Source: a virus. Taken from it: a stretch of 38,649 nucleotides of DNA. Numbering within the stretch: position 1 is the stretch's first letter; the number at the start of each line of letters is the position of its first letter. The translations under genes were made by a program, and so were the position numbers. Shown here piece by piece: positions 6,084 through 38,649 of the stretch. The stretch is taken from the IMG/VR virus record IMGVR_UViG_3300008267_000129, positions 1 to 38,649 of that record; one strand, given 5' to 3'. The notes beneath the pieces were generated by a model, which searched no databases, had not been told where the DNA came from, and saw only the letters and a list, made by a program, of their open reading frames with translations.

Positions 6084-6105
6084 CGCATATCTGCTGCATA
6101 AGTTT

Positions 6106-6137
6106 TGAGCGCCGCGCATAACTATGAGCGCCGCGCA
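6106..6137. repeat. 13-bp direct repeat after the scaffold gene
   Basis: TGAGCGCCGCGCA occurs at 6106-6118 and 6125-6137 (period 19), just before the terminator at 6142. The role is unknown. Confidence 0.5.
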
Positions 6138-6141
6138 CAAG

Positions 6142-6170
6142 GCCCCGGTTGACCGCCGGGGCTTTGTTTT
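6142..6170 (+). terminator. Rho-independent terminator between scaffold and capsid genes
   Basis: GCCCCGG (6142-6148) pairs perfectly with CCGGGGC (6156-6162) around a 7-base loop and is followed by TTTGTTTT. It ends the terminase-portal-scaffold transcript, at least partly, implying a separate promoter or read-through for the capsid gene. Confidence 0.75.
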
Positions 6171-6192
6171 GTGTAGTCTTTGCGTGTCTTTG

Positions 6193-6274
6193 CAGCGGGA
6201 CGCGAAAGCCACCCTGCTGTCAGGACAACGAAGCAAGCCTCGTCCCAAGGCTTCGGAGGGCGCGAAAGCTACCC
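6193..6274 (+). promoter_or_regulatory. Twin GNRA-loop hairpins in the capsid mRNA leader
   Basis: Two similar hairpins lie exactly 60 bases apart in the untranslated stretch before the capsid gene. Both have GGG...CCC outer stems and the identical 8-base core GCGAAAGC (6202-6209 and 6262-6269), whose GAAA forms a GNRA tetraloop. The first is extended by CAGC/GCTG (6193-6219). The core recalls pieces of known riboswitches, but the rest does not match any class I can name. It is likely a structured 5' leader affecting stability or translation of the capsid mRNA. Confidence 0.5.
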
Positions 6275-6357
6275 GAGGAAGAACAGGAAGGCATCAGTAG
6301 TCCTGGTGAACAATTCTCTTTCTTTCTCGCAGCACAACCTCTCAAGGAGTCTGAATC

Positions 6358-7782
6358 ATGGCTGAGTCCGTTTCGTCGTTTGATACTGCGGCATCCCTCG
6401 CCGCGCTGTTCAAGGAGGTCTACGCCCCTGAGCTTCTGAACCACGTCCCCGATGCGGCGATGCTGGTGAAGGAGTTGAAGTTCTCCGGCGTGGAGGCCAC
6501 CCTGGGCGGTCAGTTTGTGCAGCCCGTTGTGCTCTCCCGCGAGCACGGCTTCACCTACGCTTCGTCCGGCGACGATGCGTTTGAGTTGGCCGGCTCCATC
6601 CCCATGACGGTGAAGCGTGCGACCCTGCTTGGCAGCCAGCTGGTCGGCCAGGGCCGGCTTGGGTACGAGGCGGCGGCTCGCGCTTCCAAGGGCAAGGCGG
6701 CGTTTGCGGAGGCCACTGAGTTGCTGGTGGAGAACATGATTGAGTCGGCTGCGTACCGGCTTGAGCAGATGTTCCTCTACGGGCAGACCGGCCTTGGGCT
6801 CTGCGAGGTTGCTGGCGCTGGCGCGACGGACCCCGGCAAGGCGGGTCAGCCTACTTTCAAGGTGGCTGCGGCCGGATGGGCTCCGACGACCTGGGCGGGC
6901 ATCGAGGGTGCGAAGATCACCATTGTTGCCAACTCCTTCACGTCTGCTGGCGGCGTCCGCACCTACACGGGCGTCAAGACGGTGGCTAACACCATCGTTT
7001 CCGTCAACATGGACGAGTCGAGCGCGGACTACCGCCTGGTGACGCTGGCAAGCAATCTTGCTGTCAACCTGGCGGCCAACGATGTCATTTTCTTCTCTGC
7101 GGCTACCTCCGCCACCGCCACTGGCGCGGGCGCGACGGCCACGGTGAAGGAGTGCCTGGGCCTTGACGGCATCCTGACGACCTCCACGGGCGACCTGTTT
7201 GGCATCCCGGTGGCGTCGGCGGGCGCTGGCACCTACCCCGGCTCGCCGCTGTGGAAGGGCAACCTGTACAACGTGGGCGGGGTGCTGACGCTCACGCACA
7301 TCATGGCTGCCGCGAAGCGGGCGCGTGACAAGGGGCTGAAGGAGTCCGCGAAGCTGCTGGTGTCTCCGAAGGCGTGGATGGGGCTGGTCAACCCGACGAT
7401 GGACCCCACGGCGGTGTCCGTTGTTGATTCGGGCGGCACCAAGCTGTCCAACGCCGGAAGCCGGAAGGTGGACTCTTCCTACAGTTCCAAGCGGCTTGAG
7501 CTTGGCACGGAGAGCATCCTCATTCACGGGCCGCAGGGCGCGAACATCGAGGTTGTTCCGCACCCCTACGTTCGTGAGGGTGACGCCTTCCTGGTGCCCT
7601 TCCGCGTGATGAAGCGTGTTGGCGCGTCCGACATTGACTTCAAGACGCCTGGGATGCCTGCGGAGGAGATGTTTATCCACCTCCAGAACCAGGCCGGCTA
7701 CGAGTTCCGCTGCTACGCCAACCAGGCCCTCTTCGTGGACGCCCCCGCGAAGTGCGTGAAGCTGTACGGCATCACCGGCTAA
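6358..7782 (+). CDS. Major capsid protein
   Basis: The 474-residue product follows the scaffold gene and is translated from an ATG with a near-perfect AAGGAG eight bases upstream, the strongest ribosome binding site of the arm, as expected for the most abundant virion protein. It is flanked by terminators (6142 upstream, 7806 downstream), so it can form its own strongly expressed unit. The sequence is Ala/Gly/Val-rich with mixed helices and strands, including YRLEQMFLYGQTGLG and IDFKTPGMPAEEMF. HK97-type fold is expected for such proteins, but the residues do not let me name a subfamily (P22-like or N4 gp56-like). Confidence 0.85.
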   Translation: MAESVSSFDTAASLAALFKEVYAPELLNHVPDAAMLVKELKFSGVEATLGGQFVQPVVLSREHGFTYASSGDDAFELAGSIPMTVKRATLLGSQLVGQGRLGYEAAARASKGKAAFAEATELLVENMIESAAYRLEQMFLYGQTGLGLCEVAGAGATDPGKAGQPTFKVAAAGWAPTTWAGIEGAKITIVANSFTSAGGVRTYTGVKTVANTIVSVNMDESSADYRLVTLASNLAVNLAANDVIFFSAATSATATGAGATATVKECLGLDGILTTSTGDLFGIPVASAGAGTYPGSPLWKGNLYNVGGVLTLTHIMAAAKRARDKGLKESAKLLVSPKAWMGLVNPTMDPTAVSVVDSGGTKLSNAGSRKVDSSYSSKRLELGTESILIHGPQGANIEVVPHPYVREGDAFLVPFRVMKRVGASDIDFKTPGMPAEEMFIHLQNQAGYEFRCYANQALFVDAPAKCVKLYGITG

Positions 7783-13471: not shown

Positions 13472-16400
13472 ATGGCCCAAGTGGTGTCGCTCAAGGCTGC
13501 GGGGCTTTCGCTCACCGACAACGAACTTACCGCTGACGGCGGTAGTCTCAAGGTGGCGCAGAACCTCATCATGGACCGTGGCAACATCTACCGCTCCCGT
13601 CGCGGTATGCCTGTGTCCAGCTATGGCTATGGCTCCGCCCTGACGGTAGATACCATCGTCAACTATGCCACGGCCCTGTATGCCGGAGGCGTCACCGGCA
13701 CCAACCTCAATGCTCCGCTGCTGACGTATCAATCCGCCCTTAACGCCAGCTACACTTCCGTTTCCGCGTCCAGCCCGTTTACTTCCGCCACCTACTCTTT
13801 TGGGCCTGCCACTCCTGGCACGCCTATGAGAATGGCGGAGGCGAATAAGAACCTCTACGTTTCTACCTGGCAGGGCGTACAGCGGATTGATAAGGCTGGC
13901 GCGGGTGCCATGCTTGCCGGCATGGCGCGAGCGTGGGACGCAAACCCCGTCATTCGCGTTCGCAATGAGGCTGGCAACGCCGGCACCTACAATACGGGCT
14001 TCCTCCAGGCTGATTCCGCCTGTGCCTACCGCGTGGTGTGGGGATATAAGGACCGCAATGGGGCCATTGTGCTTGGCCCTCCGTCCGGTCGCGCCACGGT
14101 GCGGAACCCGAAGTACAAGACGGCTCAAATTAAGAAGGACACCGGCCTTGGCGTGTCCGTGGTTGACATCAACAACCCGAACGTCACCGCGCTTCCTGAT
14201 GTCTTCCCGAGTAATGGGAATCAGTCGTTCATTGCCAACGACTACATTGACATCAGCCCGTCCAACGCGAAGAACTCCGCCCCCACCCTTAAGACGATTG
14301 CGGCAACGGCGGCCAACAACACCAGCAACGTTACGGCCGGCGGCGGAAGCCAGCTGTACTACACCACCGACGCCAACAACGACACCACCTTCACCACTGG
14401 CTACACGCTGTCCCTTGGGATGCGGCCGGTGCGAGTGTCGTTCACCGTGCCCGCTCGCTTTACCAATCCGGACTACGCGGGTCAGTTTTTTGTTCGCGTG
14501 TACCGCAGCAAGCTGGCCGCTTCGGCAGACTCCGAGCCTTCGGAGGAAATGTACCTCTGCTACGAAACCAGCATCTTTGGTTCTCCTAGCGGCTCTCCGG
14601 TGTCACTCAGCTTCACAGACCTGACTCCCGATGCCTTGCTTGGGGAGGCGCTGTATACCAGCCCCACGCAGGAGGGTGCGCTCCAGGCCAATTACATGCC
14701 TCCGGTGTGCGAGGACGTGGCCCTCTTTGCGGGTAGCCTGTTCTTCGGCAATACTCGCCAGATTCACCGTTTTGCCCTGCAAATTCTCTCTGCCGGCGGA
14801 ACGGGCATCATTGCCGGCGAGTCGTTTACCATTGGTAGCGAAACGTACACGGCGGTTGCCAGCACGGCTACGCCTACCTCCACTCAGTTTCGCGTCTTCA
14901 CGGACGCCAGCCTCTCGCAGCAGCAGCAGTTGAGGCTTACCTGTCAGTCGTTGGTGCAGACCATTAACAGCTACAGCAGCGTGGTGCGCGCCTACTACAT
15001 CAGCGGACCTGGCGAGGCTGCCGGCAAGGTGATGTTTGAGGCCATCAATCCGGGGCATGTCTATGCCGGAAACACTCTGTCTAATGGCTTTTCGGTCAAG
15101 TACAGCGCCACCAAGACGTGCTTTATCCCGGCCCTTCCGTCCACCGCCAATTCCAACATCACTGGCTCGCTGGCGCGTGATGGCTCTACCGGCCTTCAAG
15201 TCCTGACGGTGGCATCGGGGCACGGGGTTAGCGCGGGCGAGTACATTCAAGTCGTCACCACCAGCGCAGCGGCCAATCTTACCTTGGGCCTCAAGCGAGT
15301 CGTTGCGACCACGGCCACCACGCTGACCATCTACGACCCGTACATTGGGGCAGGCAGCGCAGGGGCCGCCGGCACCTACTACAAGGCCACCGTCTATTCG
15401 GACGACGAGGCTCGCCCTCACCGCTTGTACTTCTCCAAGACGGGTATTCCCGAGGCAGTTCCCCTTCTCAACTACCTGGACATTGGTAGTTCCAACTACG
15501 CCATCCGGCGCATTGCGTCGGTAGGAACAAGCCTTTTCGTTTTCAAGGATGACGGCATCTTCCGCGTCACTGGATACGATACCAGTAGCCTCCAGGTGGA
15601 GGCGTTCGACCCAACGGTGAAGCTGCTGGCCTACAACAGCCTTGCCAAGCTTGCCAACTTCATCTACTGCTGGAGCAACCAGGGCGTTGTGGCCGTTAAC
15701 GAGTCCGGGGTGCAGGTCTTGTCCCGGTCTATTGACGCAGCCTTGCTACCGGTCGTCCCGGCCCTGGTTCCTGCAAACAGTCTTGCTGCGGGCATAGGCT
15801 ATGAGTCCGAGCGCCTGTACCTGCTCTGCCTGTCTTCCGGCATCTACGTTTACAATCTGCTGGCTCAGGCGTGGACGGAGTGGACGTTTGCTGACGTTCG
15901 TGGCGGCGCGGTGGATGTGGACTCTGACCAACTTCTGCTGTGGGGCTCTAACAGCGCGGCACCGCGCCTGGAAAACAAGGCTCGCACCAGCGCAGACTTC
16001 CATGATGGCGGCGGGACGGTGGGGCTGTCTTCCTGCTCAGACCTGACGCTCTCCACCTACGGCTACTACACCTTTACGGTGGTTGTTTCGACTCAGGTGC
16101 TTCGCGGGGCCAAGCTGACGCTCAACAACGGCACTTATGCGGGCAAGTCGTTCTACGCAACGGCCGATTCTGTAGGCGTTGTGAAGATGATGATTCCCAA
16201 GGCCGATTACAACGCCGGCATCAAGGGAAGCATCAATGGTGGCGGCATCACGGCCGCTTTTACCAATCCTGTCCCGGTAAGGCTGGATTGGACGGCGCAG
16301 ACGCTTGAGAACCCACAGCTTTCTAAGCATTGGCGGGAACTCTCGCTTTTCGTCAACAACGACTCCTTCGGAGTCATTCGTGGTCAGTTTGACTCCGACC

Positions 16401-16636
16401 TCTCCAAGACAACGACCGATACCAAGCTTATCGTGTCAACTTCCATGTACAGCACGTCCGGCGTTCAGCCCAATAAAGGCAGCGCCCGTACCGTGTTGAT
16501 TCCAAGGGCGTCACAGCGAGCCTCGCAGCTGACCTGCCGAGTCCTGCACAACTTCTCAGGTCAGGAATTCTTCACTCAGGGCATGTCGTTGTCAGTGGCA
16601 CCCTACGGCAGCGAATCCAAGGTGCGCCGTGGCTAA
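13472..16636 (+). CDS. Tail hub/DNA-stabilisation protein (gp10- or tubular B-like)
   Basis: 1054 residues from an ATG immediately after the previous stop, with GGAGG eight bases upstream. The N terminus (LTADGGSLKVAQNLIMDRGNIYRSRRG) matches the 'loaded with minor/major gene names, source-described' opening of podovirus packaged-DNA-stabilisation/tail tubular B proteins. The C-terminal half has repeated beta-propeller-like segments, e.g. LYFSKTGIPEAVP, NYAIRRIASVGTSLFVFKDDG, and SLAKLANFIYCWSNQGVV. Such proteins form the hexameric nozzle that closes the tail and keeps packaged DNA inside. Its large size suggests inserted domains. Family call is moderately sure. Confidence 0.65.
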   Translation: MAQVVSLKAAGLSLTDNELTADGGSLKVAQNLIMDRGNIYRSRRGMPVSSYGYGSALTVDTIVNYATALYAGGVTGTNLNAPLLTYQSALNASYTSVSASSPFTSATYSFGPATPGTPMRMAEANKNLYVSTWQGVQRIDKAGAGAMLAGMARAWDANPVIRVRNEAGNAGTYNTGFLQADSACAYRVVWGYKDRNGAIVLGPPSGRATVRNPKYKTAQIKKDTGLGVSVVDINNPNVTALPDVFPSNGNQSFIANDYIDISPSNAKNSAPTLKTIAATAANNTSNVTAGGGSQLYYTTDANNDTTFTTGYTLSLGMRPVRVSFTVPARFTNPDYAGQFFVRVYRSKLAASADSEPSEEMYLCYETSIFGSPSGSPVSLSFTDLTPDALLGEALYTSPTQEGALQANYMPPVCEDVALFAGSLFFGNTRQIHRFALQILSAGGTGIIAGESFTIGSETYTAVASTATPTSTQFRVFTDASLSQQQQLRLTCQSLVQTINSYSSVVRAYYISGPGEAAGKVMFEAINPGHVYAGNTLSNGFSVKYSATKTCFIPALPSTANSNITGSLARDGSTGLQVLTVASGHGVSAGEYIQVVTTSAAANLTLGLKRVVATTATTLTIYDPYIGAGSAGAAGTYYKATVYSDDEARPHRLYFSKTGIPEAVPLLNYLDIGSSNYAIRRIASVGTSLFVFKDDGIFRVTGYDTSSLQVEAFDPTVKLLAYNSLAKLANFIYCWSNQGVVAVNESGVQVLSRSIDAALLPVVPALVPANSLAAGIGYESERLYLLCLSSGIYVYNLLAQAWTEWTFADVRGGAVDVDSDQLLLWGSNSAAPRLENKARTSADFHDGGGTVGLSSCSDLTLSTYGYYTFTVVVSTQVLRGAKLTLNNGTYAGKSFYATADSVGVVKMMIPKADYNAGIKGSINGGGITAAFTNPVPVRLDWTAQTLENPQLSKHWRELSLFVNNDSFGVIRGQFDSDLSKTTTDTKLIVSTSMYSTSGVQPNKGSARTVLIPRASQRASQLTCRVLHNFSGQEFFTQGMSLSVAPYGSESKVRRG

Positions 16637-20642: not shown

Positions 20643-23600
20643 ATGGCCGACTTTACCGAAGAAGATATTGCCGAGATGCCGCCTGAGAAGCAGGCCATTG
20701 CTCGCTCCATCCTTGAGGCGCGCAAAAGGGAATCGGCGGGAGACTTCCGTGCGCGTCCCGGCGTTGCCCTTAAGCCGTTTAGCGTGGCCGAAGAGCAGGC
20801 TGCGGCAGAAGCCAAGCGTCCTGGCTTTTTCGACAAGAATGGGGCCCTAGACGCTTTCTCCAAGGGCCTTGCGGAGGGCGGATCATTCAATTTTGCCAAT
20901 GAAATTTCAGGCGTTCTTGGCGCGGCTGACGAGGTTGTTCGCTCAATTGGCAGCAAAGACACCGGACAATTCCCCGGAGAGTCTTTCGCTGACCGAATTT
21001 CCAAGCGATACAACATGGAGTCTAACGCCTGGAAGAAAGAGTCGAAGGACGCGCAGGAGGAAAACCCCGAAGCGTTTTTGGTGGGTGACGTTACTGGAAC
21101 CTTTGCGGCACCTATCCCTGGCGCTGGCGCTGCGGCAAACCTTGGAAGCAGGGCCGCCGTTAAGGCCGTTGGAAAGCTTCCAAAAGCGGCCAACTTTAGC
21201 GCCAAGACGCTTGGCAAGACGATGCAGTATGGCGGCATTGCCGGCGAGGGCGCTGCGGCAGGCGCTCTTGGCGGATTTGGCGCTGGCGAGGGGCTGGAAG
21301 GAAGCATTGAAACCGGCTTTTATGGCTTGGGTCTTGGCGGGACCGCCGCACCCTTGCTCCATGCCGGCGGAAGTAAGGCGTGGGATGGCACTAAGAAGCT
21401 GATTGGAGAGACTGGCGACTTTCTCCAGGGAGAGGCGGAGCGGGAGGTGCTTCGCGCTGGCATGGCCAAGGCTGCCCTGCTGAAAATCCCCCGTGAGGAG
21501 CGCCAGCGCATTGCCCGCGACATGCTGAATCTGCGGACGCCAGACGGCAAGTACGTCATTCGCTCGTTCGACAGCGCGGACAACATGATTGACCGGCTGG
21601 AGCCGTTGCTGGAAAGCCTGGGCATTGACGGCGAGAAGCTGCTCAAGATGGGCGACGATGCTATCGCCAAGGAACTTGGCCTCCCCAACAGCGAACTGGA
21701 GACTATTCGCCAGCTTCGGGGGCTCTTCCGGGATGCGGACAATTTCCGCCTTGGCCGAGCCAGGTCCGCATTCGACGAAACCGCTCACGCTGCCGCTGCG
21801 GGAGAAAAGCAGCGCCTCAACAACTGGAACGAGCAGACTAAGCGCGGCAAGGATGCGGAGGTCAGCACCTACAGCGCCATGGACCGCTCCGCCCGCGAGA
21901 AGGATGTAGTCGAGCAGGACGCCTACCGGAAGAGCCTCCAGGCGCTTCACCAGAAGCCTGAGAGCGCCAAGGTGCAGCTGGCAACCCCCGGCGTAGAGTC
22001 CGTGGACAATCGCCTGCGGCGACTCAAGGTTGGTCGGAAATCGCTGATGCAGAAGCTTCGCAACACCATGAAGGGCGCTTGGGCGGAGGCCGACGCCGCC
22101 GCTGCCGGCAAGGAAGCTGCCGAGGGCGCTGCTGGCAAGGCGGAGGCGGCTGCGGCAAAGGCGGAAGGCGAGGCCAAGCCGCTGTCAAAGGCCGAGCAAA
22201 AGAGGCAGCAGGCGGCGCAGGAGGCCGAGGCGGACCTTGCCGACCTTGGCGACGAGGCTGACGAGGTTGTGGATGTGGCTTCGGGCCGACCTCGCGGTGT
22301 CCGCTCCGCGTTTGAGGGCGACCAGGCTCAGAGCATTGTTGAGGCGCTAAAAAACGTTCCGAAAGAGGAGCGCGCAGCCGCCATTCGTGCTCTTGCCAAC
22401 AGGTTTATCAAGACCAACGACCCGATGGTGCGCGACATCCCCTTTAGGTCCGGCAACATCGGAGGGTATGACGAAGAGATACGGCGCATGGTCGAATTGG
22501 GCAGCGGTGACGCAAGGGACGCCACCCGCGACTATGTTTCCACTCGCCGTCAGTGGGGTGATGCCGTTGGCGACCCAAGCTACACCGGCCGTGCGTTGGA
22601 AGAGAACGGAATGCGCCCGATGGTTTGGCCGAACGAGGTCAAGGCCGGCCTTGAAGGTAAGCCGCCCACGCCCCGTGGCGAGCCGGGGGACTTCCCGATT
22701 GAGTACAACATGCCGGACCTTGGCAACAACAGCCAATGGGACGCCGCCTGGACCGAAAACGATAGAATCACCCGTCCCATGAGGGAGGCGGCAAAGGACG
22801 CACCGCGCACTCCCGTTCCTGAACAGCCCAAGTTTGACAGGTATCAGGACCGATACCCGAATGTGCAGGGGCCGGAGGTTGTCACTCCCAAGCAGCCGCT
22901 CCCCATCACCACCGAAGCCAACCTGCTGACTCCGAAGCAGATTGAGGCTCAGTCCGGGGCGTTTGGCGAGCGAAGCGTCCCCAACGTCCAGGTGGAGCCT
23001 GACGCAAGGCTGCTCGACGGCATCGGCCTCGACATCAGGCCTATGCTGTCCGACCTGCGTGGTCGCCTGCAAAACATGACTCGCGCTCCCAACCTCGACT
23101 TGCAGAAGGGCGGCCAGGTTGATGCCCTGCTGTCCAAGTGGGACGACATTGCCGAGAGCGGAGTCACGCTGCGGGAACTGCGGGAGTTGAAGACTGCGGC
23201 AGACAAGGACCTGGGGCCTCTCGCCAAGACCGACATTGACCAAGAGGTTGTCCTTGCCATTCGCGGGGCGATTGACGACTTTGTGGAGAAGGAACTTGGC
23301 AAGGCCACAAATCCAACGGTTCTGTCCAAGTACGGCAACAACAAGCGCAACTACGGCACCATTGCGGAATACCTCAAGGGGCTGGACAACCGCTCTGCCG
23401 GTGACGCCGGCAACAGCCGTTTCTCGCTGACGGACCAGATTCACGGCGGGACAATGGCGGAGGCCGGCCTGACTGGCCTTACGGTTGGTCTTCCCGCAAA
23501 GGACTTGCTGGAGGACGGGCGACCTGGAGCCATGACCGCGCTTGCCGCTGCTCCGGCCGTCATGCTCGCCAACCGCGCCGCTCGCCAGCGCCTCGCCACC

Positions 23601-24008
23601 GGACTTGCGCGTGGCTACGACTCTGCCGGGATGGGGCTCGAAACGCTTTCCGGGAGAATGACTCCGGAGTTCAAGCAAAAGTTTTCGGACTTCTTCCTCA
23701 AGTCTCCAGGTAACACTGTGAGGGCTCCCGGCACCACTCCGCTCAACCTGCACTTGCAGAACGTGGAGGAGCAAAACCGGCGGGAGAAGGAGATTGCGTC
23801 TGCAACACGCAGCAGCAAGGTGCAGGCGGTCCTCTCCAAGAACCCTGGAGCCCTTGGTCCCGTTGGCACGTCTTTGCTGGAGGCCATAAAGCGTGACGCT
23901 GCCGCCGGGAACGAGAACAACGAGGAATTGAAGGCTGCTATCTTCCTCAACAAAGGCAAGCTGCCAAGCGACCAGGAACTCGACAAGCTGCTTGAGGAAT
24001 CCCCGTGA
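20643..24008 (+). CDS. Large internal virion/ejection protein D
   Basis: 1121 residues, GGAGA six bases before the ATG. Residues about 150-250 are Gly/Ala-rich and of glycine-zipper type (GTFAAPIPGAGAAANLG, GGIAGEGAAAGALGGFGAGE), a composition found in membrane-active ejection proteins. Residues about 475-540 are Ala/Glu/Lys-rich coiled coil (DAAAAGKEAAEGAAGKAEAA). The remainder is mixed alpha with no catalytic signature seen; in particular I see no lytic transglycosylase motif. It is probably the main component of the DNA-translocating conduit. The stop overlaps the next start (GTGA). Confidence 0.55.
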   Translation: MADFTEEDIAEMPPEKQAIARSILEARKRESAGDFRARPGVALKPFSVAEEQAAAEAKRPGFFDKNGALDAFSKGLAEGGSFNFANEISGVLGAADEVVRSIGSKDTGQFPGESFADRISKRYNMESNAWKKESKDAQEENPEAFLVGDVTGTFAAPIPGAGAAANLGSRAAVKAVGKLPKAANFSAKTLGKTMQYGGIAGEGAAAGALGGFGAGEGLEGSIETGFYGLGLGGTAAPLLHAGGSKAWDGTKKLIGETGDFLQGEAEREVLRAGMAKAALLKIPREERQRIARDMLNLRTPDGKYVIRSFDSADNMIDRLEPLLESLGIDGEKLLKMGDDAIAKELGLPNSELETIRQLRGLFRDADNFRLGRARSAFDETAHAAAAGEKQRLNNWNEQTKRGKDAEVSTYSAMDRSAREKDVVEQDAYRKSLQALHQKPESAKVQLATPGVESVDNRLRRLKVGRKSLMQKLRNTMKGAWAEADAAAAGKEAAEGAAGKAEAAAAKAEGEAKPLSKAEQKRQQAAQEAEADLADLGDEADEVVDVASGRPRGVRSAFEGDQAQSIVEALKNVPKEERAAAIRALANRFIKTNDPMVRDIPFRSGNIGGYDEEIRRMVELGSGDARDATRDYVSTRRQWGDAVGDPSYTGRALEENGMRPMVWPNEVKAGLEGKPPTPRGEPGDFPIEYNMPDLGNNSQWDAAWTENDRITRPMREAAKDAPRTPVPEQPKFDRYQDRYPNVQGPEVVTPKQPLPITTEANLLTPKQIEAQSGAFGERSVPNVQVEPDARLLDGIGLDIRPMLSDLRGRLQNMTRAPNLDLQKGGQVDALLSKWDDIAESGVTLRELRELKTAADKDLGPLAKTDIDQEVVLAIRGAIDDFVEKELGKATNPTVLSKYGNNKRNYGTIAEYLKGLDNRSAGDAGNSRFSLTDQIHGGTMAEAGLTGLTVGLPAKDLLEDGRPGAMTALAAAPAVMLANRAARQRLATGLARGYDSAGMGLETLSGRMTPEFKQKFSDFFLKSPGNTVRAPGTTPLNLHLQNVEEQNRREKEIASATRSSKVQAVLSKNPGALGPVGTSLLEAIKRDAAAGNENNEELKAAIFLNKGKLPSDQELDKLLEESP

Positions 24009-26612: not shown

Positions 26613-26889
26613 TGATGGCGTCCTCAATCTCCGTCACCGTCTGCTGTGCATTTTGGACGGCATCCATTGTGTTGTGCGTCAGCAAAAACTTAAGCGCCTC
26701 CAAGGAGTCAATCAGCGCTTCCTTGAGGTCACAAATACGCTGGTGCATAGCTAGGTTTTCGTCCTTCAACTCGTCGTAGGACTTGGGCGGAGGCGTCTTG
26801 TTGAGGTTTTCTGCCGAGTAGACCTCCTTGAACATTTCCACCAAAGTCTGCGGGGCCGGAGCGACCACTTCATTCTTACGCTTGCTCAT
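26602..26889 (-). CDS. Small unknown protein between ThyX and the MazG-like gene
   Basis: 95 residues from the ATG at 26889, overlapping the end of ThyX by 14 bases, with AAGG ten bases upstream. After a basic start (MSKRKNEVVAP) the protein is mostly helical, with a probable coiled coil (YDELKDENLAMHQRICDLKE, ALIDSLEALKFLLTH). No family recognised. The tight overlaps on both sides place it in the nucleotide-metabolism end of the operon. Confidence 0.65.
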   Translation of the reverse strand: MSKRKNEVVAPAPQTLVEMFKEVYSAENLNKTPPPKSYDELKDENLAMHQRICDLKEALIDSLEALKFLLTHNTMDAVQNAQQTVTEIEDAINGR

Positions 26890-27580
26890 TGAATGCAGCC
26901 TTATAGGTGAGGGGAAACTGCTCCGCGAACAGGAAGGCAATGCGGTCGGCAATCTCGCCGTGTTCCGGCTGGACGCCTTCCGCTCCGCAGGCGGGGCTTC
27001 GTTGCTTGAGGTAGTGAATCCAGGAACGCACGCTGCCCTTCATGTAGAAGGTGGTGGCGGCGGACATCGGCAGCAGAAAGCGGGCGCACTCTTTGGCAAT
27101 GCCCAACTCCAGCGCCTCTAGGTACAGCGAATTGCAGATGGTCTGAACATGCTCTTGCTGCTGCTGAAACCGCACCTTGGCGCTCTCGGAAAGGGTGTCT
27201 ACCGATAGCTGGCGATTCTTGGGGTGTGGAGCGCGGGCTTCGTATGTCTCGAAACCCGCCACCGGAGCATACCGCTGGCTAAACTCCTGGAAGCGAAAGT
27301 CCCCTGACACTTCCAGGCCGTCGAAACTCCAGTGGCGAACCACTTGGGCGGAAATGGCGCGGGAGGTCTGAACCTCCACCGTCATGTCTGCCATGTCGAA
27401 CACGCTCCAGTGTCCGTGCTTGATGCAATAGCGAAGCAGGCGCTCCCCGGTGGCGGTGTCGTGCTGGTTCTGCGGAGAAGACACCCTGGCGGCATAAACC
27501 ATCAGGTCTTCGCCCGAATACACGCCGTAGTCCTTCAAGTCGCGGGACGGCAGGGTAGTGGATACCAACTTGACGCTCAC
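26876..27580 (-). CDS. thyX: FAD-dependent thymidylate synthase
   Basis: 234 residues from GTG at 27580, which overlaps the upstream stop as GTGA. ThyX makes dTMP from dUMP using FAD, NADPH and methylene-tetrahydrofolate. The flavin/substrate signature is recognisable but altered: RHWSFDGLEVS (82-92), where most members have RHR followed by T/S, and QEFSQRY (98-104) in place of NExSxRY. The C-terminal part has ARFLLP (166-171), RSWIHYLKQR (185-194) and a QPEHGEI (204-210) segment as in other ThyX enzymes. It supplies thymidine for phage DNA synthesis. Assignment confident; the RHW change deserves note. Confidence 0.88.
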   Translation of the reverse strand: MSVKLVSTTLPSRDLKDYGVYSGEDLMVYAARVSSPQNQHDTATGERLLRYCIKHGHWSVFDMADMTVEVQTSRAISAQVVRHWSFDGLEVSGDFRFQEFSQRYAPVAGFETYEARAPHPKNRQLSVDTLSESAKVRFQQQQEHVQTICNSLYLEALELGIAKECARFLLPMSAATTFYMKGSVRSWIHYLKQRSPACGAEGVQPEHGEIADRIAFLFAEQFPLTYKAAFNEQA

Positions 27581-27753
27581 GACAGGCCGCCTTCCACCAG
27601 GCGCAGCTTCAACTTCCGCATCCGGCGACGGACTTCTTTCTGCTTCTCCGTTTTGCACTCGGCCGTCAGCTGCTCTTCGTACATTTCATTGAAGAGGGCT
27701 TCCAGCTGCGTGTGTGCGGTCAGGTACGGTGCCGCATCGTCCCGGTCCTTCAT
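27577..27753 (-). CDS. 58-residue basic protein upstream of thyX
   Basis: A short gene not apparent in simple gene calls: ATG at 27753 overlaps the preceding stop (ATGA) and its own TGA overlaps the thyX start (GTGA), strong evidence of coupled translation. The protein begins MKDRDDAAPYL and has a helical, very basic C-terminal half (KTEKQKEVRRRMRKLKLRLV) that could bind nucleic acid. No family recognised. Confidence 0.65.
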   Translation of the reverse strand: MKDRDDAAPYLTAHTQLEALFNEMYEEQLTAECKTEKQKEVRRRMRKLKLRLVEGGLS

Positions 27754-28193: not shown

Positions 28194-28559
28194 TCAGAAC
28201 GGCTCGTCCGCCTCGGGCTTGCTGTCTTTGCCTGCTCCGCTACCAAGGAAGGTGATGCCGGTGGCGACGACCTCGGTGGAGTACCGCTTCTGGCCGTCCT
28301 TCTCGTACTCGCGGGTCTGCAACTTGCCCTCAACGTAAACCTGGCGACCCTTCTTGAGATACTGGCCGGCCAACTCCGCCAGCTTCCCCCAAGCCACAAT
28401 CTTGTGCCACTCGGTCTTCTCCTGCTTCGTGCCGGACTTGTCCGTGTAGGACTCGGACGTGGCGAGGGAGAAATTCGCAACCGTGGACTGCCCGACAGCC
28501 TTGACCTCGGGATCCTTCCCCAAATTGCCAACGATGATGACCTTGTTCACGCCGCTCAT
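28194..28559 (-). CDS. ssb: Single-stranded DNA-binding protein
   Basis: 121 residues, an OB-fold SSB. It opens [19 protein letters not shown], has [20 protein letters not shown] and [20 protein letters not shown], all typical of bacterial/phage SSBs, and ends with the acidic tip ADEPF that in host SSB recruits partner proteins. The linker is much shorter than in host SSB. It coats single-stranded DNA in replication and recombination; Sak4-type recombinases, as encoded upstream in this operon, are known to work with the phage SSB. The ATG overlaps the previous stop (ATGA). Confidence 0.95.
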
Positions 28560-29981: not shown

Positions 29982-30247
29982 CAGACAACCTCCTTCGACG
30001 CCACCTGGACGGCCATGCCGGTGAACTTGTTGTCCAACTCGGCACCCACAGTCACCATCAGCTTGAGCGACATGCCGTACATGGTGCGCGCCTTCTCCAG
30101 CGTGGCCGCATCCAAAAACCCCGGCCGGCGAGCCTCGACAGCAAGCCCGTCCCACAGCATGACGGTGTTGCGGGCCAACTCCATGTACTCCTGCAACTGC
30201 CGCAAATCCTCGCCCTGTACCTGGAACTCCGCGTAGTGCGTCTTCAT
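29981..30247 (-). CDS. Small unknown protein between recombinase and nuclease
   Basis: 88 residues; the ATG overlaps the recombinase stop (TAATG) and the stop overlaps the nuclease start (TGATG), so all three are coupled. Mixed helical protein (EDLRQLQEYMELARNTVML ... ATLEKARTMYGMSLKLMVTV) with no motif I recognise. Such constant placement between two recombination enzymes suggests a subunit or regulator, by context only. Confidence 0.65.
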   Translation of the reverse strand: MKTHYAEFQVQGEDLRQLQEYMELARNTVMLWDGLAVEARRPGFLDAATLEKARTMYGMSLKLMVTVGAELDNKFTGMAVQVASKEVV

Positions 30248-31152
30248 TAGCGAACCACCGACTTGCGAGCCTTAAACGCCGCCAGCACGGCCGGCTTCTT
30301 CGCCTCCTCCGGCGGAAGGCTGCGGTACAGCGTCCGCAACTCCTCGTCGGTTTCGCAATTGGCAATGCGGTCAAACGTGGTCAGCGGCTCTTCGGGAATC
30401 TGGTACATTTCTCCCGGAGCAGACGCCAGCTTCTCCAGCCCCTGCGGCTCGGCCTTCGCCTCCGACTTGGCAAACACCGTGGGAGCCGCCACAACGCCGT
30501 CATTCAGCCAAGCGTTGAGAATCTTCGCCATCTGCGGCACGTCCCGCCGGGTAAACAGCTTGTCGGAGAGGTCGCTGCACCGCGTCTTCGACACGTTGAC
30601 GTTGCCCTCCAAGGACAGGTCAATCACCACGTCGAACTCGTACTCCATTCCCTCGCGCTGCACCGGGGCCATGCCAACCTTCCGGATGGTGACGCGACCA
30701 TTGCTGTCCTTCTCGCTCTCATAGGCCATCTTGGAGCGCATGGTGCAGATAACATGGCCGGGGTAGCCAAGGATGGCCTCGACCAGTTTGGCGTGCATGG
30801 GCGTCACCTTGCGCCACCCGCTGCCAAACTTGTCCTTCTCCCGGTCCACAATCTCCAAGGATGCCATCCAGGCGTGGGAGAGGGAGTCAATGATGAGGAC
30901 TTCGTAGCCGGCCTCGCCAGCCGCCTTGATGGCCTCGACGTAGGACAACGGGCTGTGGTCGGTGAGGCTCGCGGTGTCGAACGCGAATTTGTCCGCGTAC
31001 TTGCTGGCGCTGCCATGCTCGGTGTCCAGCAGAGCCACCTTCTTGCCCAACGTGGTGCCTAACTGGAGGCTGGAGAACGTCTTGCCGCTGCCGGCAGGGC
31101 CATCAAACGTGATGCGAAGCTTGCTCTTGGACTTCTGTGCCTTCTGGAACAT
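30247..31152 (-). CDS. Sak4-type RecA-like single-strand annealing recombinase
   Basis: 301 residues with a RecA-fold ATPase core: Walker A GPAGSGKT (18-25), LLDTEHGSA (41-49) and Walker B VLIIDSLSHAW (85-95), as in the phage AAA_24/Sak4 group, which keep the RecA core without its flanking domains. The C-terminal 90 residues are probably disordered then helical (LRTLYRSLPPEEAKKPAVLA). Sak4 proteins promote annealing or strand exchange with the help of SSB. GGGAG lies seven bases upstream of the start. First gene of the coupled recombinase-nuclease-SSB block. Confidence 0.85.
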   Translation of the reverse strand: MFQKAQKSKSKLRITFDGPAGSGKTFSSLQLGTTLGKKVALLDTEHGSASKYADKFAFDTASLTDHSPLSYVEAIKAAGEAGYEVLIIDSLSHAWMASLEIVDREKDKFGSGWRKVTPMHAKLVEAILGYPGHVICTMRSKMAYESEKDSNGRVTIRKVGMAPVQREGMEYEFDVVIDLSLEGNVNVSKTRCSDLSDKLFTRRDVPQMAKILNAWLNDGVVAAPTVFAKSEAKAEPQGLEKLASAPGEMYQIPEEPLTTFDRIANCETDEELRTLYRSLPPEEAKKPAVLAAFKARKSVVR

Positions 31153-32621: not shown

Positions 32622-32989
32622 TTCTCCACCTCCGTCACTAGCGGAGTGTGCCGCACAGTGACCGCGAACATGAAGCCGCTGAGCGTTTCCACACGCTTCG
32701 CGCACGCCTCCCGCTGGCGCTCGGCCACATCTTGAAGCGCCTGTCTAGCGCCGAATCCCGCAGCGTCGAGCGTTGCCAGCAGGTCGGACACCTCGGCGCG
32801 GGCTTCGTCTAGTTCTTCGCGGCACGTCTGCAACAGCGACCAGTCGGGATGAAACTGGGAACCCTGATGTTTTGCCAACTCAGCCCGCGCCTCGTCGCGC
32901 TCGCTCAGTGTTTCTTTGTAGCGCTCCTGCCAATACTTGGCGATGCGCTCCCAATCGTCCCGCTGCTGCTTCATGGTTTCGTGACTCAT
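32618..32989 (-). CDS. Coiled-coil protein downstream of the helicase
   Basis: 123 residues, ATG at 32989 overlapping the helicase stop by four bases. Residues 1-85 are charged heptad-rich helix (YWQERYKETLSERDEARAEL, LQTCREELDEARAEVSDLLA), then a second helix (ALQDVAERQREACAKRVETL). No catalytic motif. Coupled expression with the helicase makes a replication accessory role possible. Confidence 0.6.
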   Translation of the reverse strand: MSHETMKQQRDDWERIAKYWQERYKETLSERDEARAELAKHQGSQFHPDWSLLQTCREELDEARAEVSDLLATLDAAGFGARQALQDVAERQREACAKRVETLSGFMFAVTVRHTPLVTEVEK

Positions 32990-34293
32990 GGCATCCCCTC
33001 CGTGGCCTTGAGCATGGCCGCAGCGCCGTGGAACTGAACCTCGACGCTCTTCCCGGCCTTGCCATTGGTGTTCTTGAGGACGTGAATCACCATCTTGTCG
33101 CTGTCAGGTTCGCGTGAAAGTCCAAGCGCAATCCTAGCCTTTCTCTCAGCGCCACTAGAATTTGCGAAGTCTGACAGCTTGGGCATGTCACCTGGCCCAA
33201 GACCGTCACGCCTTCGAAGGTGGGCAGCGACGACAACGGGTATTCCGTATCGGTTAGCCACTCCCCGCAGCTTGGACAAATGCCTTGAAACTTCCAGGTC
33301 ATAGCGGGCTTCGTCGCCATTGCCGGCAATCTCCCCCAGGTGGTCAACGATGATGGCCTCAACGCCGTGCATCACCACCATTGCATTGCAAGCCGCAACC
33401 ACTTGGTCAATCGTCATGGCGCTGTCCGCCCCGTCCACAAGGAATACCTTGTCCCCGTACTCATGCATCCGGGTGAATCCGTCCGCCGTCTGCTGATAGT
33501 GGAAGTCCGAAAGCCGCTTGTGGCGTAGTACGAACTGGTCAACCTTCGACTCGTCCGAAAGCAACCGCCACGCAAGCCAAGAGGCCGCGTCTTCCAGGGA
33601 GACAAGCCCCACCCGCTTACCTCGCTTGGCTAGTGACTGAGTGACGGTCGCCAAGAAGGCGCTCTTGCCAACCCCAGGGAGCGCTCCCACCAGTACCAGC
33701 GTGGGCTGCAAGCCGCCAATCACGGCATCCAGCACCCTGATGCCGGTAGGAAGTACGGCGTCCTCCGTGCCGTTGTTCACCTTGTCCAAATGCGCCAACA
33801 ACTCCGAAGAGGCTTCCCGCAGGGTAACGATGTTGGACTCAACGGCCGCTATGTTCGCCAGCTTGCCGGCCACCGCTGCCGCAGCCTCCAGGGGGGACGC
33901 CTTGCCGTCCGTCAGCTGCGTCCTCAAATCTGCCAGGTGAGCAAGCACCGTCCTCCGTGCCGCCAAATCCCGCAGCGTCCTGGAGTGAGGGACTACATGG
34001 TGCCCGTCCGCCACGGGGTCCATCAGGACGGCTGCCGCGTACTCCCAACCTACCGCCGCGAGGGCTTCGTCGCGCTCCAGCTGAGACTTGACCGCGAGCG
34101 GGGTGACGGGCTCGCTCCTGTCCAGCACCGCCTTCATGGCCGTGAAAAGGGCTTGGTGCTTGGGGTGATGGAAGTCTTGCTCCACCAGCTTGCTTTGGCG
34201 GAGAAGCAAAAGAGCCTTGGATGAATCCAAGGTGGCTTCATTGGAGAGGGCCGATAGGACGGCCCGCTCAACCTCATGGTTGTGTAGCTGCAT
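32986..34293 (-). CDS. Replicative DnaB-family helicase
   Basis: 435 residues from the ATG at 34293, which has GGAGG five bases upstream. The N-terminal domain (LHNHEVERAVLSALS ... FHHPKHQALFTAM) is the usual DnaB protein-interaction region; the RecA-like motor has Walker A GALPGVGKS (203-211), VGLVSLED (228-235), Walker B AIIVDH (313-318) and VVVAAHLRR (353-361). It unwinds DNA at the fork as a hexamer. The gene for its probable loader (34773-35564) lies upstream on the same transcript with one gene between. Confident. Confidence 0.9.
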   Translation of the reverse strand: MQLHNHEVERAVLSALSNEATLDSSKALLLLRQSKLVEQDFHHPKHQALFTAMKAVLDRSEPVTPLAVKSQLERDEALAAVGWEYAAAVLMDPVADGHHVVPHSRTLRDLAARRTVLAHLADLRTQLTDGKASPLEAAAAVAGKLANIAAVESNIVTLREASSELLAHLDKVNNGTEDAVLPTGIRVLDAVIGGLQPTLVLVGALPGVGKSAFLATVTQSLAKRGKRVGLVSLEDAASWLAWRLLSDESKVDQFVLRHKRLSDFHYQQTADGFTRMHEYGDKVFLVDGADSAMTIDQVVAACNAMVVMHGVEAIIVDHLGEIAGNGDEARYDLEVSRHLSKLRGVANRYGIPVVVAAHLRRRDGLGPGDMPKLSDFANSSGAERKARIALGLSREPDSDKMVIHVLKNTNGKAGKSVEVQFHGAAAMLKATEGMP

Positions 34294-34322
34294 ACCTTCC
34301 TCCCGTCCCACCGCTGGGACGC

Positions 34323-34772: not shown

Positions 34773-35564
34773 CTACGCCTCGCCGTAAAGGGAGTCCGCC
34801 TCGGACTCGGAAAGGACGTTGGCGGACTCGCCTGTGGCCTTGCCCCAACGGTCGTACTTCCCCTCTAGCACCATTGCCGCCGACATGGGCCGGAGCAGCC
34901 AGTCAAAGGTGACGGTCCACTGGCGGTCGTTCTTACCCAAGAGTCCAGGCGACTTGCCCATGCGCTCCAGCACTTCCGTCCAGTATTCCGGCCCGTTCTC
35001 CCTGGCGCGAGCGTCCGCCAGCTGAGCCCGCTTTCCGCCCACCTTCGTTACCTGAGGAACCTTGTGCTTCGCGGCCCAAGCGTTCCACAGGGAGGCCAAG
35101 TCTTTCCCCCGGAAACTGCCCTTATCAGTAGTGGGTGTAGTGGTGTGGTGTGGTGTAGATTCAAAAAGTTTTTCCTCACCCAAAAAACTTTTTGCGTTTT
35201 CGGTGGGCTTGGATTTCGGGACACGTTCCGTCCCGGCCTTCCTAAACCCGTAGAATTCCTCCCAACCGACAACCACCAGGCATCCCGCTTCAACGGAAAG
35301 CATCCCGGAAGAAACCAACTTGTCCAGGGAGAGGCCGATGCTGGCGGTCAAGTATTCCATGTTGTCCAGGCCCCAATCCTCCGGCCGGAGCGCCACGGCC
35401 CCGGCAATAAACGCCGGATCCGCATAGTCCGCAGGAAGCACGCCACGCAGGTCGTACATGGCGGAAATGTCCACCAGCGCCTCGTAAACACGCATGGCAC
35501 GCCAACCCACCTTCAACGCCTTCGGTTTGGTGTGCCGCCTCGGGTCCAGCCGGATGAAGTCCAT
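34773..35564 (-). CDS. Replication initiator/helicase loader
   Basis: 263 residues, ATG at 35564, GGGAG upstream. Residues 1-110 resemble the winged-helix N-terminal region of phage replisome organisers (KVGWRAMRVYEALVDISAMY, LTASIGLSLDKLVSSGMLSV). A Thr/His-rich linker (136-148) follows. The C-terminal domain (LWNAWAAKHKVPQVTKVGGKRA, W195, GLLGKNDRQWTVTFDWLLRP, VLEGKYDRW) matches the well-known ending of phage replication proteins that load DnaB. The linker is encoded by an A/T-rich palindrome and GTGGTGTGG-type repeats on the plus strand, which may be an origin embedded in the gene. Confidence 0.75.
   Translation of the reverse strand: MDFIRLDPRRHTKPKALKVGWRAMRVYEALVDISAMYDLRGVLPADYADPAFIAGAVALRPEDWGLDNMEYLTASIGLSLDKLVSSGMLSVEAGCLVVVGWEEFYGFRKAGTERVPKSKPTENAKSFLGEEKLFESTPHHTTTPTTDKGSFRGKDLASLWNAWAAKHKVPQVTKVGGKRAQLADARARENGPEYWTEVLERMGKSPGLLGKNDRQWTVTFDWLLRPMSAAMVLEGKYDRWGKATGESANVLSESEADSLYGEA
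35131..35193. repeat. Repeats and 11-bp palindrome within the initiator gene (possible origin)
   Basis: The plus strand has GTGGTGTGGTGTGGTGTAG at 35140-35158, then AAAAAGTTTTT (35163-35173) and AAAAACTTTTT (35183-35193), an 11-bp perfect inverted repeat with a 9-base spacer. Similar elements (GTGGTGTGGA tandem and AAAAAGTTTT inverted repeat) flank the terminase genes at 1341-1443. Repeats plus A/T-rich DNA inside an initiator gene is the arrangement of lambdoid-type origins. Confidence 0.5.
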
Positions 35565-36566: not shown

Positions 36567-36608
36567 GGCTTGCCTTTCGTTGTGAGGGGGCTTGCGTGCT
36601 TCCAAGGG

Positions 36609-36635
36609 CGGTTCACCCGTGTTCCAGGTGAACCG
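36609..36635 (-). other. Intergenic hairpin 1 of the conserved family
   Basis: CGGTTCACC (36609-36617) and GGTGAACCG (36627-36635) form a perfect 9-bp stem with a 9-base loop. The surroundings share TCCAAG and CCTAAGCGG with the two related hairpins at 37316 and 38004. Confidence 0.55.
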
Positions 36636-36658
36636 ACCTAAGCGGCACACAAGCGGCT

Positions 36659-36850
36659 TCAATCTCCAAAGGGGGCCACGCGATACAGGCTTGCAGCGGC
36701 CATAGCGTCATCCTCGCATTCCACGGCCTCTTCCTCTTCCATGCACTCGCATCCGAACACGTCACGGTGCGAATTCACGAAAGAGGCTTCCGCGTAATCT
36801 GCGGCAAGGTTTCTAGGCGTAGCTTCCAGGCGTTCCGTTTTCGCTTTCAC
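36659..36850 (-). CDS. Small acidic unknown protein
   Basis: 63 residues from GTG at 36850 (GTGA overlap with the upstream stop and GGAGG seven bases upstream), preferred over the ATG at 36865. Basic N terminus, then an acidic Cys-containing stretch (GCECMEEEEAVECEDDAMAA). No family recognised. Confidence 0.6.
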   Translation of the reverse strand: MKAKTERLEATPRNLAADYAEASFVNSHRDVFGCECMEEEEAVECEDDAMAAASLYRVAPFGD

Positions 36851-37291: not shown

Positions 37292-37353
37292 GCCTGGAAC
37301 CGTTCCAGGCGTCCAAAGCGGTTCAACCGCCATCCCGCACGGTTGAACCGCTT
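37292..37353 (-). other. Intergenic hairpins 2 of the conserved family
   Basis: AAGCGGTTCAACCG (37316-37329) and CGGTTGAACCGCTT (37340-37353) form a 14-bp perfect stem with a 10-base loop. GCCTGGAAC-C-GTTCCAGGC (37292-37310) forms a second stem. The 17-base flanks CCGTTCCAGGCGTCCAA (37300-37316) and TAAGCCGCCGGCAACGG (37353-37369) are identical to those around hairpin 3, while the stem bases differ. Confidence 0.65.
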
Positions 37354-37371
37354 AAGCCGCCGGCAACGGCT

Positions 37372-37944
37372 CTAGGCAACCGCGCAAGCCTGATAGTCCG
37401 CCTCTTCCGCCCGCATAGGCATGACAACGGCCGTCACCTTGAATTCCCCCGCGAGCGCCATATCCAAGCGCGTAGGATCGTGAGAGTCCGCGATTGACTG
37501 AATCCGAACGGGGATGGGAGTGCGCTGAAAGGCCTTGCTGATAGAGGCGAAAGCTTCCAGGCAACGGGACAACAAAGCGGGATTAATGGCGCGCAAGGTG
37601 GCGCTTGCAGCGTCACCGCTAGGCCGGAATTCAGGAATGACCCGTGCGAATTGCGGGAATTCGTAATCATCCTGAATTGCGGGGATGTCTTTCGGTTCAA
37701 TCCCCGCTTTCAGTTTCGCAACGGTTCCCTTCACGTCATACAGGCCGGAGAATTCCCGATCTTTATCAACGGGCCGAAAGCCGTGCGGCTTGTCCAGGAT
37801 CAAACGGATCAGCGCGTGTCCGTCCGTTGCGACTAGGACGTTAGGCGACGGCGCGAAAACGTATTGCAGCGCCAGCCGTGTCTTATCGGTTGAAACGTAA
37901 GAGGCGACGGCGGAAAACACCTTGACAGCGGTTTTCAATTCCAT
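37372..37944 (-). CDS. Compact DnaN-like sliding clamp
   Basis: 190 residues, ATG at 37944 with AAAGGG upstream. Segments match the bacterial beta clamp in order: VATDGHAL (38-45; clamp ATDGHRL), EFPQFARVIPE (95-105; clamp FPDYRRVLP), INPALLSRCLEAF (120-132; clamp FNxxYLxDVLxA) and, near the end, VVMPMR (173-178; the host clamp's own C terminus is VVMPMRL). Beta clamps are about 366 residues in three domains; this has about half. Clamps encircle DNA and tether polymerase. The phage has no polymerase of its own, so it may redirect the host replicase, or compete with the host clamp. Homology is inferred from motifs only. Confidence 0.6.
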   Translation of the reverse strand: MELKTAVKVFSAVASYVSTDKTRLALQYVFAPSPNVLVATDGHALIRLILDKPHGFRPVDKDREFSGLYDVKGTVAKLKAGIEPKDIPAIQDDYEFPQFARVIPEFRPSGDAASATLRAINPALLSRCLEAFASISKAFQRTPIPVRIQSIADSHDPTRLDMALAGEFKVTAVVMPMRAEEADYQACAVA

Positions 37945-38003
37945 GGGGATTCCCTTTCGTTGTGTGAGTGAGTGACGCTAGGACCGTTCCAGGCGTCCAA
38001 GGG

Positions 38004-38027
38004 GGATTCACGGTTGCCCGTGAATCC
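38004..38027 (-). other. Intergenic hairpin 3 of the conserved family
   Basis: GGATTCACGG (38004-38013) and CCGTGAATCC (38018-38027) form a 10-bp perfect stem with a TTGC loop. It is flanked by the same two 17-base sequences as hairpin 2 (37984-38000 and 38031-38047), the second ending one base before the stop codon at 38048-38050. Confidence 0.65.
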
Positions 38028-38047
38028 GCCTAAGCCGCCGGCAACGG

Positions 38048-38431
38048 TTACAAGGTGACAGCGGGAAGCGCTTTGACGGCTTCCGGGACACCTTCGGCCG
38101 CATAGCGCCTTGCGGCATTGTGCGCGGCTTTCGCGGTTGCGAATTGCTGGAAGGTTCCAGCTGTCTCAATTCCCCCCGTTGAGGGGATGAATTCCCGGAC
38201 GCTGTAGCGCCTAGAATCGTCGGAACGTGGCCGCTTTTCAGACGTTACGAAAAACGTTCCGCCCTTCCCGCTGTATGCAGGCTCCAGGATGCGCGAACCG
38301 AAAAACCGCAAGGTTCCAGGCTCGAACCAATGTCCGCCCGCATCCCCGTTTGCGCGGACAATCTCCGGAATCGAATAGTGGCGCGTCCCCTTTTCGTCCG
38401 TCCAACCGTAGCGGCTTGCGAGATAGGCCAT
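38048..38431 (-). CDS. DUF7447-like conserved phage protein
   Basis: 127 residues from the ATG at 38431 with GGAAGGAAGG upstream. The sequence GGHWFEPGTLRFFGSRIL, then FFVTSEKRPRSDDSRRYSVR and IETAGTFQQFATAKAA, follows the pattern (W/F-F.P.T.RFF.SR ... F.TSE ... RRY.VR ... FQ.YAT...A) of a small protein common in phages and plasmids, which I recall as DUF7447. Biochemical function is unknown. Early-expressed by position. Confidence 0.65.
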   Translation of the reverse strand: MAYLASRYGWTDEKGTRHYSIPEIVRANGDAGGHWFEPGTLRFFGSRILEPAYSGKGGTFFVTSEKRPRSDDSRRYSVREFIPSTGGIETAGTFQQFATAKAAHNAARRYAAEGVPEAVKALPAVTL

Positions 38432-38434
38432 GAC

Positions 38435-38649
38435 CTAGCCTTCCTTCCCGTCACGGGCCACGGTTTCCGCCCATTCATAGGCCACGGCGAAAGCGTCCGC
38501 GCCGTCAACCGTCACGGAACCAAGGGCGGAAGAGTCCGCGCCCATGAGGCTTGACACCTTGGACAAGAAAAGCACGTCCAAGGGATGCACGGAAGAGGCG
38601 GGAACGCTTCCGGCGGCGCGGCGTGCTTCCCGCCACGCGGAAAGGATGG
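38435..38649 (-). CDS. Unknown 95-residue early protein, C-terminal part
   Basis: The remainder of the gene whose start is at 187. Bases 38536-38649 duplicate 1-114, so the unique part is 38435-38535. It ends AYEWAETVARDGKEG and stops (TAG) three bases before the start of the DUF7447-like gene. The reading frame is intact across the join, supporting circularity. Function unknown. Confidence 0.7.
   Translation of the reverse strand, partial: ILSAWREARRAAGSVPASSVHPLDVLFLSKVSSLMGADSSALGSVTVDGADAFAVAYEWAETVARDGKEG
38536..38649. repeat. Terminal direct repeat, right copy
   Basis: Identical over 114 bases to the start of the window; see 1-114. Confidence 0.9.

Follow-up and report, generated by a model that had tools for sequence, protein, structure and literature searches.

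A reduced half-size DnaN-like clamp protein encoded by a phage in which no DNA polymerase was found

Introduction

Half-size relatives of the bacterial sliding clamp DnaN are scattered among many phages, where they are already known as annotations that name them "beta subunit" or, wrongly, "RusA." Bcep781 gp15 (193 aa), for example, is annotated as a "DNA Pol III b subunit fragment," and Escherichia phage rolling gp39 (170 aa) and Vibrio phage 1.046.O gp51 (192 aa) belong to the same group of proteins (phrog_3007/POG3659). A literature search that most subscription journals lay outside of found no functional study of a half-size phage clamp. The ORF2 product of Erythrobacter phage R6L, published as a "beta clamp" (PMC5463345), was set aside as a further example; it has 151 aa, and clamp motifs are absent by eye. 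In Bcep781 and rolling the clamp gene (5986-6567 and 5956-6468, respectively) is surrounded by opposite-strand genes for the head and packaging, with capsid-side genes to one side and head-morphogenesis, portal, and terminase genes to the other, an odd position that both genomes share.

Other clamps differ from this group in domain content. Full-length phage DnaN proteins, such as Rhizobium phage 16-3 p081 and Caulobacter phage Sansa gp102, have three domains and 369 to 461 aa, whereas a subunit of PCNA or T4 gp45 consists of two complete domains. The consensus of the clamp-binding motif (CBM) is QLxLF. The residues of the CBM pocket of DnaN have been defined, as have the dimer-interface residues I78, F106, I272, and L273 (PMC11139829), and the DNA contacts of loop II have been listed (PMC5042465). 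The host clamp network is also touched by Gp168 of phage Twort, an inhibitor that binds the clamp itself (structure solved with the S. aureus clamp, 7evp).

Here we examine a 190-aa protein encoded in a 38,649-nt stretch of viral DNA (IMG/VR record IMGVR_UViG_3300008267_000129; the whole stretch is referred to below as the window). An earlier note on this DNA had proposed a half-size sliding clamp in a phage without a DNA polymerase. New here are the reduced form of this protein, an analysis of its pocket, an association of its relatives with PolA, and a correction of the RusA label.

Results and Discussion

Gene organization

The ORF begins with ATG and occupies the coordinates given in the earlier note, but on the minus strand, since the plus-strand frame over the same interval is interrupted by stops. 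A ribosome-binding-like sequence, AAAGGGA, precedes the start codon, and a promoter scan found no promoter near the gene. The four segments that had been read as DnaN hallmarks (TDGHAL, EFPQFARVIPE, INPALL [previously written as fNP-x-L], and VVMPMR) are all present and in DnaN order. The gene and its parts are as follows:

37372-37944, minus strand: half-size DnaN-like clamp protein, 190 aa (ORF, phrog_3007, half-clamp profile, AlphaFold2 model, VIA)
37945-37975, minus strand: upstream region with the ribosome-binding-like sequence (sequence read directly)
37795-37944, minus strand: motif 2a, residues 1-50, approximately E. coli DnaN 130-185 (alignment; model)
37630-37794, minus strand: motif 2b remnant and domain 2-3 linker, residues 51-105 (alignment; DSSP of the model compared with the Bcep43 relative)
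37405-37629, minus strand: motif 3b, residues 106-180, with N121 and VVMPMR (alignment; model)

Three long, imperfect inverted repeats (36583-36661, 37292-37377, and 37983-38048; arms of 31 to 38 nt, 74 to 82% complementary) each mark the 3' end of consecutive minus-strand genes around the clamp gene. Two of the three have the near-identical flanks CCGTTCCAGGCGTCCAA ... TAAGCCGCCGGCAACGG in common; the stems of this pair differ yet remain self-complementary, and a T-run is absent. These repeats are a possible RNA or terminator-like element.

Homology and family membership

The similarity to DnaN proposed earlier was recovered with family profiles. The phrog_3007 profile in PHROGs matches residues 7 to 180 of the window protein over positions 7 to 187 of 190 (E = 1.7e-6), and a profile of 66 half-size clamps from which the window protein was left out scores it at 38 bits (E = 1.1e-9 among 20,001 sequences) while reporting none of 20,000 shuffled copies. 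Pfam was silent: no direct match was found in Pfam, in NCBIfam, or in a single-sequence search of the PDB, and the curated DnaN models of Pfam and NCBIfam gave zero matches. BLAST and pattern searches with the window protein likewise returned nothing from phage records or from viral and genome contig collections; when BLAST was confined to candidate stretches, two relatives were matched at 26 to 30% identity.

The first relatives were instead found with a hand-written, artificial, consensus-like half-clamp sequence, used as a BLAST query only, which recovered Bcep781 gp15, Escherichia phage rolling gp39, phiHSIC ORF2, and Vibrio phage 1.046.O gp51; further relatives were found by alignments. 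An alignment of these named proteins with the window protein yielded 190 matching viral loci, of which 80 were taken. All but two of the retrieved proteins (78/80) are 170 to 265 aa long, a range that includes the window protein, and the remaining two have 299 and 353 aa. The 66 sequences of the half-clamp profile come from this set. The relatives match PF02767 (DNA_pol3_beta_2) in Pfam, most of them above the cutoff, and all 55 matches of the family profile to PDB sequences at E <= 0.001 are DnaN. Phage Sansa's annotated DnaN is also recognized by the phrog_3007 profile, at approximately residues 222 to 369 of 461, and the profile was positive in 9 of 14 control genomes, where we infer that dnaN is the match.

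On these profile matches, the window protein is best regarded as a divergent member of the large phage family phrog_3007, which it resembles in size, motif order, and full-length profile match while being only 16 to 26% identical to its relatives. It retains 11 of the 15 near-invariant positions of the family, including all 10 that belong to the pocket; the four lost columns (D21, Y25, G28, and G94) lie outside the pocket. The earlier note had implied that such a protein is singular, whereas half-size clamps are common in phages and already annotated in databases.

PHROGs names phrog_3007 "RusA-like Holliday junction resolvase," and the RefSeq phage records NC_004333.2, NC_016566.1, NC_013600.1, and NC_006953.1 have a "RusA-like" name on DnaN-like proteins. 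If the label were correct, the window protein would be a resolvase rather than a clamp relative, but phrog_3007 members match PF02767 and not RusA, neither the window protein nor seven relatives gave a RusA match in Pfam, the family profile recognizes DnaN in Sansa and throughout its PDB matches, and the fold described below is that of DnaN. We therefore reject the label and give a resolvase almost no credence.

Predicted structure

The AlphaFold2 monomer model (pLDDT 78.4, pTM 0.79) has the clamp fold of DnaN domains 2 and 3, as the earlier note would lead one to expect. Its top PDB matches in Foldseek are DnaN, with weaker matches to PCNA; among viral structures, the top matches are for the most part proteins of about 160 to 270 aa. 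VIA aligns the model with DnaN structures over about 155 residues (Z 12.8 to 14.0, rmsd 2.7 to 3.2), the best match being A. baumannii DnaN (Z 14.0). With E. coli DnaN, model residues 1 to 178 align with 130 to 365, the match stopping near residue 365 (about 154 residues, rmsd 2.7 to 3.0, Z 12.8). The likeness thus takes in domain 2 and, of domain 3, the second half. By both alignment and structure match, the window protein lacks domain 1 and motif 3a. Profile and fold agree in identifying a half-size DnaN homolog, with 190 aa compared to 366 aa in E. coli.

A relative, Bcep43 gp15, gave a better model (pLDDT 90, Z of about 15 to 17 to DnaN) with three beta-alpha-beta3 motifs, which we assign to 2a, 2b, and 3b. 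The models thus put the half-size family at about 1.5 clamp domains rather than the two complete domains of a PCNA or T4 gp45 subunit, and the window protein has fewer still. Its motif 2a is modeled as one helix and three strands, but of motif 2b only a strand and a helix are retained, and the next three strands are gone. The 2b strand segment comprises 13 aa, compared to 28 in E. coli and a family median of 28; it is the shortest among 67 half-size clamps, the next shortest having 19 aa. Because the 2b strands are missing here and complete in the Bcep43 relative, the window protein is a reduced variant and untypical for phrog_3007.

Peptide pocket, ring interface, and DNA contacts

The part that remains is the part that forms the peptide pocket. 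Identity with E. coli DnaN is 15/18 at pocket positions and 18/134 elsewhere (Fisher p = 3e-9), although DnaN is recognized most strongly by the pocket motifs, which also fix the alignment, so that detection in part presupposes that they are retained. For the family as a whole, identity averages 0.76 in the pocket and 0.19 elsewhere. Motif 2a contributes R23, L26, T40, G42, H43, and L45 (E. coli R152, L155, T172, G174, H175, and L177), the FPQFARVIP segment contributes P97, R101, and V102 (P242, R246, and V247), and VVMPMR contributes V173, M175, P176, M177, and R178 (V360, M362, P363, M364, and R365). The three replacements are V344 to D, Y323 to L, and R176 to A.

This pattern bears on whether the gene is what is left of a clamp gene in decay, now without a function. 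Such decay would fit the exceptionally short 2b segment, the changes at V344 and Y323, and the lack of a close homolog in the searched collections. Set against it, the ORF is intact and preceded by a ribosome-binding-like sequence, pocket residues are selectively retained, and the family match spans the full length; we consider a functionless remnant very unlikely.

The elements that close and thread the DnaN ring have fared differently from the pocket. The interface residues I78, F106, I272, and L273 belong to domain 1 and motif 3a, so that the window protein is without the known dimer interface. Among the loop II contacts, Q149 is replaced by D, Y153 by L, and Y154 by A, with R152 unchanged. 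The column of K198, a pore residue, holds an acidic residue (D or E) in 50 of the 66 half-size clamps, in contrast to K in 6 of 9 full-length phage clamps. The trimerization that the earlier note named as one option consequently found no support, given subunits of about 1.5 rather than two domains, the missing parts of the dimer interface, and the acidic K198 column, and on the models we regard a trimeric ring as disfavored.

Genome content and PolA in relatives

We searched the window for PolA, PolB, and Pol III alpha and found none of them, consistent with the earlier description of a phage without a DNA polymerase. The contig ends in an exact direct repeat, and an ORF cut off at the right end resumes at the left end when the two ends are joined; for these reasons the genome is probably complete, at about 38,535 bp. 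An incomplete contig as the cause of the missing polymerase was rejected, since the terminal repeat closes the contig. In the absence of a polymerase of its own, the phage is presumably replicated by host Pol III. The terminal repeat and genes of the early minus-strand region, to which the clamp gene also belongs, are as follows:

38536-38649, no strand: exact 114-bp direct repeat, copy of 1-114 (script)
32986-34311, minus strand: DnaB-like replicative helicase (phrog_19, E = 7e-56)
34773-35564, minus strand: DnaD-like helicase loader/replication initiator (phrog_10469, E = 4.3e-14)
30247-31152, minus strand: Sak4-like/phrog_1366 ATPase (phrog_1366, E = 1.2e-69; phrog_124, E = 4e-11)
28194-28559, minus strand: single-stranded DNA-binding protein (phrog_44, E = 2.7e-50)
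26876-27658, early minus-strand region: thymidylate synthase (phrog_85, E = 5e-60)

An exonuclease is also present in the early minus-strand region. Elsewhere, 20643-24008 encodes a 1,121-aa protein whose sole similarity is to phrog_5880 (unknown function), and 13472-16636, also a large gene, has similarity to an internal virion protein. No canonical CBM was found in the replication proteins of this phage; a CBM pattern scan of 35 window genes gave a single match, compared to a mean of 4 in shuffled sequences, and CBMs among its own proteins were accordingly rejected as not above chance.

In its lack of PolA the window phage resembles the phages with full-length DnaN named above and differs from many of its half-size relatives. 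Among 45 records with half-size clamps, 29 contain a PolA-type polymerase (15/26 when counted by 50%-identity clusters), compared to none of 23 comparison records, but the comparison set is non-random, with eight records chosen for full-length DnaN, and many of the tested records are fragments, so that the association is suggestive. The PolA polymerases of the relatives contain no conserved CBM; the candidates QLELF and QNELF, found at the N terminus of 2 of 20, are unconserved, abut the exonuclease motif, and were dismissed as chance matches. The co-occurrence could mean that the family serves phage polymerases.

It is from this association that a true processivity clamp draws part of its appeal. 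Subunits of 1.5 domains would assemble into a ring, for example a tetramer with 12 motifs or a trimer, which would be loaded onto DNA and would tether phage PolA in the relatives and host Pol III in the window phage. The DnaN fold and the complete motif 2b of other half-size clamps also speak for such a ring. Nevertheless, the protein lacks domain 1 and motif 3a, from which the two faces of the DnaN ring interface are built, the 2b strands are absent in the window protein, the pore lysine column is mostly acidic in the relatives, and the window phage itself encodes no polymerase; a DNA-encircling clamp appears unlikely.

Proposed role

The reading we prefer, to which we assign a probability of roughly 0.5, is that the window protein is a beta clamp derivative reduced to the pocket, without a ring, that binds the CBMs of host proteins. 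The parts that make up the CBM pocket have been kept, namely motifs 2a and 3b and the linker between domains 2 and 3, whereas domain 1 and motif 3a have gone, as has most of motif 2b. The product would be monomeric, or at least would form no ring around DNA, and would bind the CBM peptides of replication proteins. Its partners should be host proteins because the phage has no polymerase and its own replication proteins yielded no CBM-like peptide. The protein might act as an adaptor that recruits host Pol III, or another client of the clamp, to the DnaB/DnaD-type replisome of the phage, or as a soluble competitor that takes selected clients (clamp-loader delta, Hda, or repair polymerases) off the host clamp. 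Competition by a monomeric pocket is conceivable because E. coli beta has an about 50-fold tighter hold on clamp-loader delta as a monomer than as a dimer (PMC11139829).

The tight binding of delta by monomeric beta, together with the retained pocket and the lost ring, would also suit an inhibitor of host replication that draws either the clamp loader or Pol III alpha away from the host clamp by titration and halts chromosome replication, similar in effect to Gp168, although Gp168 binds the clamp and the window protein is itself clamp-like. Relatives that carry PolA could afford such a host shutoff. General inhibition would, however, harm a phage that presumably depends on host Pol III, and for the window protein we judge it distinctly unlikely. 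An adaptor or a selective competitor is likelier than a general shutoff, since the window phage must spare host Pol III. The earlier proposal of a takeover of host Pol III or an inhibition of host clamp traffic is thus plausible insofar as the protein may act on replication proteins of the host.

Conclusions

We tentatively extend the pocket-only reading to the family, at somewhat less than even confidence: this widespread group of phage proteins may consist of soluble clamp mimics, pared down to the client-docking pocket, that direct or sequester clamp-binding proteins of the host and do not encircle DNA, with the window protein as its most reduced member, acting on host Pol III clients. A pocket retained without the parts of the ring predicts binding of QLxLF peptides without encirclement of DNA. 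If this is true, phages would possess a mimic of the hub that organizes bacterial replication and repair, which would be of use to phage biology and could provide a lead for clamp-directed antibacterials.
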